Shown here piece after piece: positions 18,484 to 21,903 of a stretch of 64,000 nucleotides of DNA (position 1 is its first letter; every line of letters starts with the position of its first letter). The position numbers and the translations under genes were made by a program. The DNA is from an uncultured Pirellulaceae bacterium (GTDB lineage Bacteria > Planctomycetota > Planctomycetia > Pirellulales > Pirellulaceae): contig CAJQQR010000078.1 of assembly GCA_905480545.1 (NCBI GenBank), positions 1-64,000 on the forward strand. The letters are read 5' to 3'. The notes below the pieces were generated by a model. It saw only the letters and a program-made list of their open reading frames with translations, made no database searches and had not been told where the DNA came from.

Positions 18484-18667
18484 CATGCGCTATCCCTTGT
18501 GTCAAATTCGTTGTCATAGCGCCGCACTAGGAAGTTGAGTCAAATAGTGCCCCTTCGTCTAAATTACGATGGCGGACAATAACGATTTGAAACATAATTC
18601 GGCTGCCCCCACAATCTAAAATTACGAACCTCTGTAACTGCGTGAAAATCAAAGCAGGAATGATCCA

Positions 18668-20707
18668 TTGAAAAAGCTGCTAGAGTCTTGCGAAAACGAC
18701 CTTTTGATGTTGGACCTTCAGTCTCGTTCGCTTGATGCTGCGGTGAGCGATATGATCGACCAACTTGCCGAGAAAGGCGTGATCGATCGTGCAGATACGC
18801 AAACCATTCTCAACGGAATCAAGGCTAGAGAAGATCTGGCAAGCACAGCGATCGGGAATGCCGCGATTGTCCCGCATGTCTATCTGGATTGCATTTCTAA
18901 GCCGGTCATCGCAATCGCTCGTCTCAAGCAAGCAATCAACGTCGGGGCACCAGACGGTGCCCCGGTCCAGTTAATTTTTCTGCTGATTGGTCCGCCTGAA
19001 GCAACAGCCGAACACTTGGACTCGCTGGCTCATATCGCTCGATTAATGTCCGACGATGAGTTTCATTATCTAGCGGTAACTGCAAAAGCAACCAAGCAAT
19101 TCAAAGACGCCATCGAATCGCGAATGAGTGGCAAATCCGCTGCGGTCCATCACGACTCGATTGGTGAGGGCCTGAGATATTCCGGCAAACTGTTTGGCGG
19201 ATTTATTGGAGACGTCAAACGTCGCCTCTCACATTACAAATCTGACATTGTTGACGGTTTGCATTCCAAGTCCGTTGGTTCAACGATTTTTTTGTTCTTT
19301 GCGTGTTTGGCACCGGCGATTATTTTCGGCGGGCTCATGGACGATAAAACGGGTGGACAGATCGGAGCGGTTGAGATGATCATCGCGACCGCAGCCTGCG
19401 GGCTGGTCTACGCGATTTTTGCCGGACAACCCATGATCATTTTGGGCGGTACCGGCCCGATGTTAATATTTACAGGGTTGCTTTATGAATTCTGCACCGC
19501 AAATGAAATCGCGTTTTTGCCCGCCTATGCATGGGTCGGGTTTTGGACCGGTGCAATCCTGTTGGTACTTGCTTTTACCGATGCAAGTTGTTTGATGCGG
19601 TACTTCACTCGCTTTACGGATGAAATATTTGCTGCCCTGATTTCAATTATCTTTATCTACGAGGCGGTCAAGAGCCTGATTCATATCTTTCATGAGCATG
19701 GTGAAACGTCCAGCTACGATATCGCCCTGTTGTCTTTGCTTTTGGCGATTGGAACTTTTTACATCGCATCACAATTGAGTGCATTTCGTAAAAGTCATTT
19801 GCTAGTTCCACAGCTGCGTGAATTCCTGGCGGATTTCGGTCCGACGTTGGCCATTATCGCGATGGCCGCCGTCGCCTACATGACACGCGACGCCATTAAA
19901 TTAGATGTGCTGCCAGCACCCGAAAGCATCCAACCTACGGATTCGGAAAGAAGTTGGCTCGTTGGTTTTATGGACACTCCGACGTGGGTGATCTGGGCGT
20001 CTATTGTTCCAGCGATTTTGTGTAGCATTCTCGTCTACCTTGATCAAAATATCACTGCAAGACTGGTCAACAGTCGGGACAACAATTTGCAAAAAGGTGA
20101 ATCGTATCACCTCGACCTTGGTGTAGTTGGAGTTTTGATCGCGGTCTGTTCAGCATTTGGCTTACCTTGGTTGGTTGCTGCGACAGTCCGTTCACTGAAT
20201 CACGTGCGTTCGTTGGCAAGCACGGAAGAAGTGATCGATCGTGGAGGAACCGCCCACACCCACATCCTTCATGTGCGGGAAAATCGCATCACAGGAATTT
20301 CGATCCACTTGCTGGTCGGTTTGTCTTTGCTATTGCTGCCTTGGTTTAAGTACATTCCGATGGCCGTGTTGTTTGGTTTGTTCCTTTACATGGGCGTCGT
20401 TTCGATGAAAGGAAATCAGTTCTTTGAGCGCCTCAGTTTATGGCTGACCGATCCTGCCCTTTATCCCGCAACCCACTATGTCCGTCGCGTTCCATGGCGC
20501 ACCATCCATTTGTTCACCGTTATTCAGCTACTCTGTCTGGTTGTGTTGTGGACCGTCAAAGCTAGCGCTTGGGGGATACTGTTTCCTGTTTTCATTGCGA
20601 TACTCGTCCCCATCCGCTTTGCTTTGGGTTACTTTATCAACTCAAAACATATCGAAATTTTAGATGCGGAAGAGAATCCGGAGGAAGAAGAAGAGACCTG
20701 GTCGTAA
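18668..20707 (+). CDS. PTS EIIA-like domain fused to SLC4-type bicarbonate transporter
   Basis: The 679-residue protein starts with TTG at 18668, eight bases after an AGCAGGA site. Residues ~1-155 form a PTS EIIA type 2 domain, with His70 in AIVPHVYLD at the normal phospho-histidine position. Residues ~170-655 match the band 3/SLC4 anion exchanger fold: FFACLAPAIIFGGLMDD, the conserved FAGQPMIILGGTGPMLIF, ALISIIFIYEAVKSL, and a late VGLSLLLLPW with GLFLYMGVVSM. SLC4 proteins move bicarbonate or carbonate, often with sodium. The fusion suggests control of inorganic carbon or pH homeostasis by phosphorylation. No other PTS gene is nearby. The EIIA-like domain may instead bind a regulator without being phosphorylated. 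Confidence 0.88.
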   Translation: MKKLLESCENDLLMLDLQSRSLDAAVSDMIDQLAEKGVIDRADTQTILNGIKAREDLASTAIGNAAIVPHVYLDCISKPVIAIARLKQAINVGAPDGAPVQLIFLLIGPPEATAEHLDSLAHIARLMSDDEFHYLAVTAKATKQFKDAIESRMSGKSAAVHHDSIGEGLRYSGKLFGGFIGDVKRRLSHYKSDIVDGLHSKSVGSTIFLFFACLAPAIIFGGLMDDKTGGQIGAVEMIIATAACGLVYAIFAGQPMIILGGTGPMLIFTGLLYEFCTANEIAFLPAYAWVGFWTGAILLVLAFTDASCLMRYFTRFTDEIFAALISIIFIYEAVKSLIHIFHEHGETSSYDIALLSLLLAIGTFYIASQLSAFRKSHLLVPQLREFLADFGPTLAIIAMAAVAYMTRDAIKLDVLPAPESIQPTDSERSWLVGFMDTPTWVIWASIVPAILCSILVYLDQNITARLVNSRDNNLQKGESYHLDLGVVGVLIAVCSAFGLPWLVAATVRSLNHVRSLASTEEVIDRGGTAHTHILHVRENRITGISIHLLVGLSLLLLPWFKYIPMAVLFGLFLYMGVVSMKGNQFFERLSLWLTDPALYPATHYVRRVPWRTIHLFTVIQLLCLVVLWTVKASAWGILFPVFIAILVPIRFALGYFINSKHIEILDAEENPEEEEETWS

Positions 20708-20895: not shown

Positions 20896-21903
20896 CTAGC
20901 GATTCGCTGGATTTTGCTGAGAAGTTGATGATCTCGGGCCCTGGATGGGTGCTTTTTTTGCACCGATTTTTTTGCCACCGATTTTTTTACCACCGATTTT
21001 TTTACCACCGACAAGCTTTGCCCGAGGGTGCGCTTTCTCGTAGATGTCCTTCAATCCGGCGGTACTGACATGGGTATAAATCTGGGTCGTGACCAGGCTC
21101 TTATGTCCCAGTAACTCTTGGACGCTCCGAATATCTGCACCAGCATCAAGAAGATGCGTCGCAAAACTGTGTCGCAGGGTATGCGGGGAAGTTCGAAGGT
21201 CCAAACCGGTCACCATCAAGTACTTTTCTACCATCCGGCCGATGCTGCGTGTCGTGATGCGTTTGCCAAATTTGTTAACAAACAACGGCATCTTGCCATT
21301 CTCGGTTTTGGCCCTGCGTTGTCGCTGCCATTTTCTAATCGCTTTGATCGCAAAGGAACCCAGCGGAGCCAGTCGCTCACGTTTGCCTTTTCCGGCAACC
21401 CGAACATATCCATCTTCGAGATCCAGACTCGAATCATTGATACCGACCAATTCACTGACTCGCAGGCCTGCTGAATAAAGGACCTCAAAAATGGCTCGGT
21501 CGCGAGTACCCATGGTGTCATCCAACGGGGGAGCCTGCAGTAACTTGCCAATCTCGTCGGTCGTGAGGAAGTGAGGCAGTTTTCGTTCAGGACGTGGGTT
21601 CTTTAAAGGCTTGGCCGGGTTGCTATCAACAAGACCTTCGCGTTGACCGAACCGGAAAAAACTTCGAAGGCTTGCAAGACGTCGGGAAATCGAGCTTTTC
21701 GCGTATCCTGCTTCATGCAGTGCTGCCACGTATCCTCTCAAATCGAGAGATGTAATTTGCTGGGGCTCAGGAGTTCGGCCATCATCTTCGGCAAGGAACT
21801 CAGCGAGACTCGTCAAATCTTCTTTGTAAGACTTGATGGTGTAATCGGACGAATTGCGTTCAACTTTGAGGTAGGTCAGAAATCGCTGGATTGCTTCAAG
21901 CAT
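20896..21903 (-). CDS. XerC/XerD-type tyrosine recombinase with repeat tail
   Basis: The 335-residue enzyme has a SAM-like N-terminal DNA-binding region (to ~105) and a full tyrosine recombinase catalytic domain. Catalytic residues are visible as R148 (AGLRVSEL), K172 or K174, H241 and R244 ([12 protein letters not shown]), H267 (LLGHKSL) and Tyr276 (TTQIYTHV). This fits a chromosome-dimer resolution recombinase of the Xer family. It could be XerC or XerD; I cannot tell which from this sequence alone. Beyond residue ~298 there is an unusual Lys-rich tail with [19 protein letters not shown], encoded by a 15-base tandem repeat with T7 runs on the plus strand. The gene follows a short conserved partner gene, probably in one transcript. 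Confidence 0.9.
20950..21010. repeat. Tandem repeat, 15-base unit, inside the recombinase gene
   Basis: On the plus strand the unit CCACCGATTTTTTTx repeats about four times with small changes. It encodes the KKIGG repeats of the recombinase tail on the minus strand. Its 15-base period keeps the frame, but the T7 runs are prone to slippage. Confidence 0.8.

Follow-up and report, generated by a model that had tools for sequence, protein, structure and literature searches.

The gene at positions 18668..20707 of the window (the whole 64,000-nt stretch of DNA analysed, from an uncultured Pirellulaceae bacterium) follows, in bacterial form, the layout usual for SLC4 proteins: its EIIA-Ntr-like domain matches the animal N-terminal domain in position, order and fold. 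We regard as nearly certain both the fusion architecture and its kinship to the N-terminal domain of animal SLC4 proteins, and the regulatory domain of the bacterial protein probably derives from a bacterial phosphate-relay protein. The initial annotation had described an EIIA type-2 domain fused to an SLC4 transporter, and both Pfam domains were recovered over cut-off in this open reading frame; the notion of the PTS EIIA as an odd fusion or unrelated add-on was abandoned, as the domain corresponds in bacteria to the N-terminal domain of SLC4 proteins (Band_3_cyto match, AE2 and NBCe1 at 1e-19). The link in fold between EIIA and band 3 was already known; the bacterial SLC4 protein with a phospho-site-bearing version of the domain appears to be new. 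Pfam itself may list the combination of EIIA and SLC4 domains. A bacterial SLC4 protein with a phospho-site-bearing domain was not described in the openly licensed literature searched, and passages of one 2015 review (PMC4664831) state the opposite: AE1 and NBCe1 are there given N-terminal domains of EIIA fold, the N-terminal domain is said to be absent from bacterial, fungal and plant SLC4-like proteins, and no homologue of it is said to be identifiable as a gene of its own. In passages of two further papers, fish slc4a11a is reported to match PTS_EIIA_2 (PMC7692064) and Nitrococcus mobilis is cited as carrying a bacterial SLC4-like protein (PMC8738779).

Domains were assigned by Pfam searches of the translated open reading frame (Table 1). 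PTS_EIIA_2 was matched at E 2.1e-22 (80.1 bits, cut-off 27) and HCO3_cotransp (PF00955) at E 1e-181 (605.9 bits, cut-off 27), the latter over profile positions 1-171 and 233-550 of 551, the membrane domain being complete. Band_3_cyto (PF07565) was matched at E 4.3e-10 (40.2 bits, cut-off 34.3) over profile positions 198-279 of 294 only. Compared with the PDB, the whole protein matched NBCn1 and AE2 at E about 1e-126 and PtsN at 3e-14. The fusion is not a product of chance, since the fusion has relatives over its whole length, at 71% identity (L007) and 45% identity (L008, Myxococcota).

Table 1. Positions of the fusion gene and its parts in the window, and of other EIIA-transporter fusions (given by locus).
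Feature	Position	Strand	Remarks
Whole gene: EIIA-like N-terminal domain and SLC4 membrane domain	18668..20707	+	679 aa, TTG start
AGGA, possible ribosome-binding site	18656..18659	+	8 nt 5' of the TTG start; putative, from sequence
EIIA type-2 domain, residues 9-150 (also matches Band_3_cyto, residues 72-151)	18692..19117	+	Pfam, fold match
Linker joining EIIA-like and SLC4 domains	19118..19186	+	by difference
SLC4/HCO3_cotransp membrane domain	19187..20674	+	two Pfam pieces, 19187-19699 and 19712-20674
Arg54	18827..18829	+	in 12/13 Planctomycetota fusions (L007: Gln)
His70, predicted phospho-acceptor	18875..18877	+	codon CAT, within ASTAIGNAAIVPHVY; 13/13 Planctomycetota fusions, 27/33 overall
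His116, second active-site-type His	19013..19015	+	13/13 Planctomycetota fusions, 25/33 overall
Asp459	20042..20044	+	aligns with Asp of Na+-coupled NDCBE/NBCn1 (AE2: Glu)
Arg508	20189..20191	+	aligns with Arg of AE2 (NDCBE: Leu)
EIIA-transporter fusions (amino-acid permeases, CLC channel, sulfate permease, Na/H exchanger)	L117:280-3717, L120:2707-5148, L116:406-2550, L121:9-1988, L118:574-2259

The genome assembly comprises 5.97 Mb in 300 contigs and is 88% complete. On comparison of neighbouring genes across 19 loci the fusion gene appears to stand alone: no conserved operon partner was seen in these loci beyond two upstream genes common to the window and L007, blocks in G137 and G194 (which are very similar to each other) and scattered pairwise matches, and none of nine neighbouring genes carried a PTS or carbonic-anhydrase domain. 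A search of a plasmid collection returned 158 records with a match, none covering 80% of the query; among the matches listed, the EIIA part only was covered, up to residue 181. On the opposite strand of the window, positions 20896-21903 (-) hold a 335-aa open reading frame with a lysine/glycine-repeat tail, presumably a tyrosine recombinase of the XerC/XerD type.

The occurrence of the SLC4 family was surveyed in two phyla, Planctomycetota and Myxococcota. Matches to PF00955 came from 18 of the 392 Planctomycetota genomes sampled, 14 of them over cut-off, and from 32 of the 377 Myxococcota genomes sampled. Rows left out of the counts were, in Planctomycetota, G065 and G147 (matches divided between contig ends) and the sub-cut-off G110, G140, G171 and G323, and in Myxococcota, G407 and G714 (listed without a locus) and the second SLC4 copy of G718; L008 and L059, being one protein, contributed a single count. 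In G718 (contig C447) two SLC4 genes lie on opposite strands with their matches about 1.1 kb apart, in open reading frames of 589 and 688 aa, and the longer one was analysed. The 30 Myxococcota SLC4 proteins comprised 20 with an EIIA-like domain, 8 without and 2 that were ambiguous (L040 at a contig edge, L053 with a broken frame). The set of 33 fused domains used below consists of 13 from Planctomycetota and 20 from Myxococcota.

The initial annotation had placed His70 in the active-site position, and this was borne out by alignment: Arg54, His70 and His116, positions that we take to be the EIIA active site, align with the matching residues of the free EIIA-Ntr encoded by the same genome. Conservation of His70 in fusion orthologues, put forward there as a check, was found in all 13 Planctomycetota fusions and in 27 of 33 when Myxococcota were added. 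The 13 Planctomycetota domains are 28-56% identical to the window protein; His70 and His116 are among their 14 invariant columns, and the full active-site pattern (Arg54, STAIG, Pro-His, His116) is present in nearly all of them. The fused domains read PHxY/F at the motif, as against PHTK or PHGK in most free EIIA-Ntr proteins. Arg at column 84 was considered as a mark of fused domains and discarded, as it occurs also in Burkholderia and Neisseria PtsN. An AlphaFold2 model of residues 1-170 (pLDDT 76.5) was compared with solved structures, giving Z 15.5 for PtsN/EIIA-Ntr, 15.6 for human BTR1, 14.5 for AE2 and 14.4 for band 3, with a range of 13-15.6 over 135-158 residues for the solved band 3/AE/NBC N-terminal domains. 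A full-length AlphaFold2 model built from three sequences reached pLDDT 39.4 and was set aside.

The gene is predicted to encode a bacterial SLC4 transporter of the bicarbonate/anion type; the uptake of inorganic carbon named in the initial annotation is a possible function more than a supported one. At the half-site columns held in AE2 by Glu and Arg, which we take to be part of the substrate site, the window protein has the acidic Asp459 and Arg508, columns from which the mode of coupling is not deducible. Asp occupies the first column in 32 of 41 bacterial rows and Arg the second in 35 of 41.

Kinship of the fused domain to the animal N-terminal domain was detected by profile searches. When the 13 fused domains from Planctomycetota were combined into a profile, it matched PtsN at 5e-26, AE2 at 3.3e-19, NBCe1 at 4.4e-19, NBCn1 at 1e-16 and AE1 at 9e-14. 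The corresponding profile of free EIIAs, built from 13 domains with one per genome of that set, matched EIIA-Ntr at 9e-34 and AE2 at 3.6e-4, and did not match AE1 up to E 10. At E 0.01, Band_3_cyto was matched by 13/13 of the fused domains versus 1/13 of the free EIIAs. Across all 33 fused domains, Band_3_cyto was matched by 25 and PTS_EIIA_2 by 28, and the domain of G227 matched both families almost equally (3e-26 and 4.3e-23). A segment of AE2 before the active-site loop, about 85 residues between two matched AE2 segments, is absent from the bacterial domain, which is therefore filed as a homologue and not as an animal-type member.

The initial annotation had noted that no EI or HPr gene was visible, which holds for the window and fails for the genome. 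A single EI match lies on another contig (C137:11155-11526), inside a 597-aa open reading frame containing GGPTSHAAIIAR, which we take to be the EI active-site motif, and a single HPr match (C144:29397-29633) adjoins the free EIIA-Ntr gene. The relay is thus present in the genome, since genes for EI and HPr were found, and the suggested search for EI/HPr or PTS-Ntr genes was answered by all three on contigs other than that of the window; with these genes and His70 in 13/13 Planctomycetota fusions, the earlier view of phosphotransfer control as plausible was retained. HPr was matched in 191 of 199 sampled Planctomycetota genomes (G065 having no match) and in 91 of 188 sampled Myxococcota genomes. 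As HPr is near-universal in Planctomycetota, its presence says little there, and EI/HPr is a necessary condition only, a weak test when taken alone. A third EIIA of the genome (L010:4438-5136, contig C102 of G000) combines a type-2 domain with an N-terminal HTH_17 domain and is possibly a PTS-controlled DNA-binding regulator.

Presence of the phospho-site was then compared over the 33 fusions. The Pro-His motif occurs in 16, comprising the 13 from Planctomycetota and 3 from Myxococcota. The 17 fusions without it are all from Myxococcota; they form a single clade in the EIIA-domain tree (100/99) and, together with L040, a single clade in the membrane-domain tree (96/96). Eleven of them have His in another context and six have Arg or Val. 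EI and HPr were both found in 16/16 genomes carrying a Pro-His fusion versus 9/17 without the motif (Fisher p 0.0027; one independent contrast). Independent-pairs tests against the PTS gave too few contrasts, one for the PH motif and two for His, on starred branches. His is still present at the His70 column in 6 of 8 PTS-less carriers, and 9 carriers have a PTS and lack the PH motif. The Myxococcota pattern fits a loss of phosphorylation control, short of proof.

In a tree of the 33 fused and 25 free domains, all fused domains fell on one side of a 100/99 branch; when three animal domains and two PDB PtsN sequences were added, the 27 free domains formed one side (100/97) and the animal domains fell on the fused side. 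In the membrane-domain tree, which was built without G344 (long branch) and L053, two animal sequences formed a separate 100/100 branch, with Pro-His fusions as the closest bacterial rows, the tree having no Bor1 outgroup and a bootstrap that had not settled. The window membrane domain is closer to animal SLC4 (1e-119) than to Bor1 (3e-62). We give an even chance to the reading that an EIIA-Ntr domain phosphorylated by the PTS was joined a single time, in bacteria, to an SLC4 carrier and is the ancestor of the N-terminal domain of animal SLC4 proteins, that the protein passed to animals with both domains and its phospho-site then disappeared, as happened inside Myxococcota, and that the first job of the domain was control of base transport by the PEP relay. 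A single fusion event common to bacterial and animal SLC4 proteins is likewise evenly poised, and the series inside Myxococcota from Pro-His through x-His to Arg or Val, along which loss of the phospho-site may be traceable, belongs to this same reading and shares its middling standing. It is unlikely that bacterial and animal SLC4 proteins gained the EIIA-like domain independently, with the Band_3_cyto likeness a convergence on one domain family. Such a course would agree with the repeated joining of EIIA domains to transporters, though at the C-terminus in those cases, with the AU test, in which a tree with the animal domains among free EIIAs was not rejected (p 0.203), and with trees in which no Bor1, algal or protist sequence was placed; against it, the order and position of the domains are identical, the best tree groups animal with fused domains across the 100/97 branch, Band_3_cyto separates the fused domains from the free EIIAs of the same genomes, and AE2 and NBCe1 are reached at 1e-19 from the fused profile as compared with 3.6e-4 for AE2 from the free one.

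As to function, phosphate from PEP would pass in the regulatory PTS through EI and HPr to His70, phosphorylation would change the seating of the domain on its membrane partner, the changed seating would alter the rate of transport, and the movement of base or inorganic carbon would thereby be tied to the PEP/pyruvate state of the cell. Other transporters of related or carrier genomes, namely two amino-acid permeases, a CLC channel, a sulfate permease and a Na/H exchanger, likewise bear an EIIA domain with an intact PH motif, here at the C-terminus (Table 1); EIIA is therefore used there as an attached transporter module, and in those genomes has the look of an all-purpose control unit appended to ion transporters. 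A 521-aa protein (L122:2194-3756) has a C-terminal EIIA type-2 domain preceded by about 370 residues with no Pfam match. From these fusions and the precedent of LacS, whose fused EIIA-like domain is described in a passage of PMC10710835 as phosphorylatable by HPr, phosphorylation of His70 by HPr is favoured as an SLC4 switch, and it is moderately probable that HPr~P acts on His70 and so sets transporter activity, by analogy with LacS. The main rival, which we consider rather doubtful, is that the domain serves in structure, dimerisation or docking and is not phosphorylated, as proposed for animal SLC4, His70 being kept for folding or another contact. The animal N-terminal domains do have the fold without the His, 6/33 bacterial fusions have Arg or Val at the His70 column, and neither EI nor HPr was found in 8/33 carriers; yet the active-site pattern is kept in nearly all of the 13 diverged Planctomycetota fusions and the decayed forms are confined to one Myxococcota clade. 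EIIA-Ntr acts by binding other proteins, and the fused domain, which resembles it, might be a tethered EIIA that takes phosphate from HPr for onward transfer or as a sensor of the relay on behalf of another partner (TrkA is given as an example of an EIIA-Ntr partner in a passage of PMC4664831), with transport independent of it. This is judged quite improbable, the 19 loci having no conserved neighbouring partner gene beyond those common to close relatives.

If the proposed switch works, the fusions would be a second kind of carrier under direct PTS phosphorylation, and if the single bacterial origin is true, the first job of the domain would have been control of base transport by a phosphoenolpyruvate relay. 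The bacterial fusions, whose EIIA active-site pattern is intact, provide an intermediate form that bears on where the N-terminal domain of bicarbonate transporters came from and what it first did, and make that question testable with purified proteins; they may reveal the source of the same domain in human transporters.

Among known systems, LacS would be the closest in manner of working, as a carrier to which an EIIA-type domain phosphorylatable by HPr is covalently joined (a passage of PMC10710835), but it joins an EIIA(Glc)-like domain to a GPH carrier, both of other families than those of the window protein, in which no PTS_EIIA_1 or GPH match was obtained up to E 1 (Pfam). Bor1 and the domain-less bacterial SLC4-like proteins (Nitrococcus mobilis, by citation) share the membrane domain family; the window protein differs from the latter, among them the eight Myxococcota proteins without an EIIA domain, in possessing one. 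EIIA-Ntr/PtsN shares with the window domain the Pfam family PTS_EIIA_2, the fold (Z 15.5) and the active-site pattern, whereas the window domain is joined to an SLC4 carrier, matches Band_3_cyto and lies on the fused side of the tree (100/99). The animal SLC4 proteins (AE1/band 3, AE2, NBCe1, NBCn1, NDCBE and SLC4A11) have the same two domains in the same order, with an N-terminal domain alike in fold (Z 13-15.6) and of detectable sequence kinship; the bacterial domain retains Arg54, His70 and His116, whereas AE2, NBCe1 and NBCn1 have Val at the His70 column.
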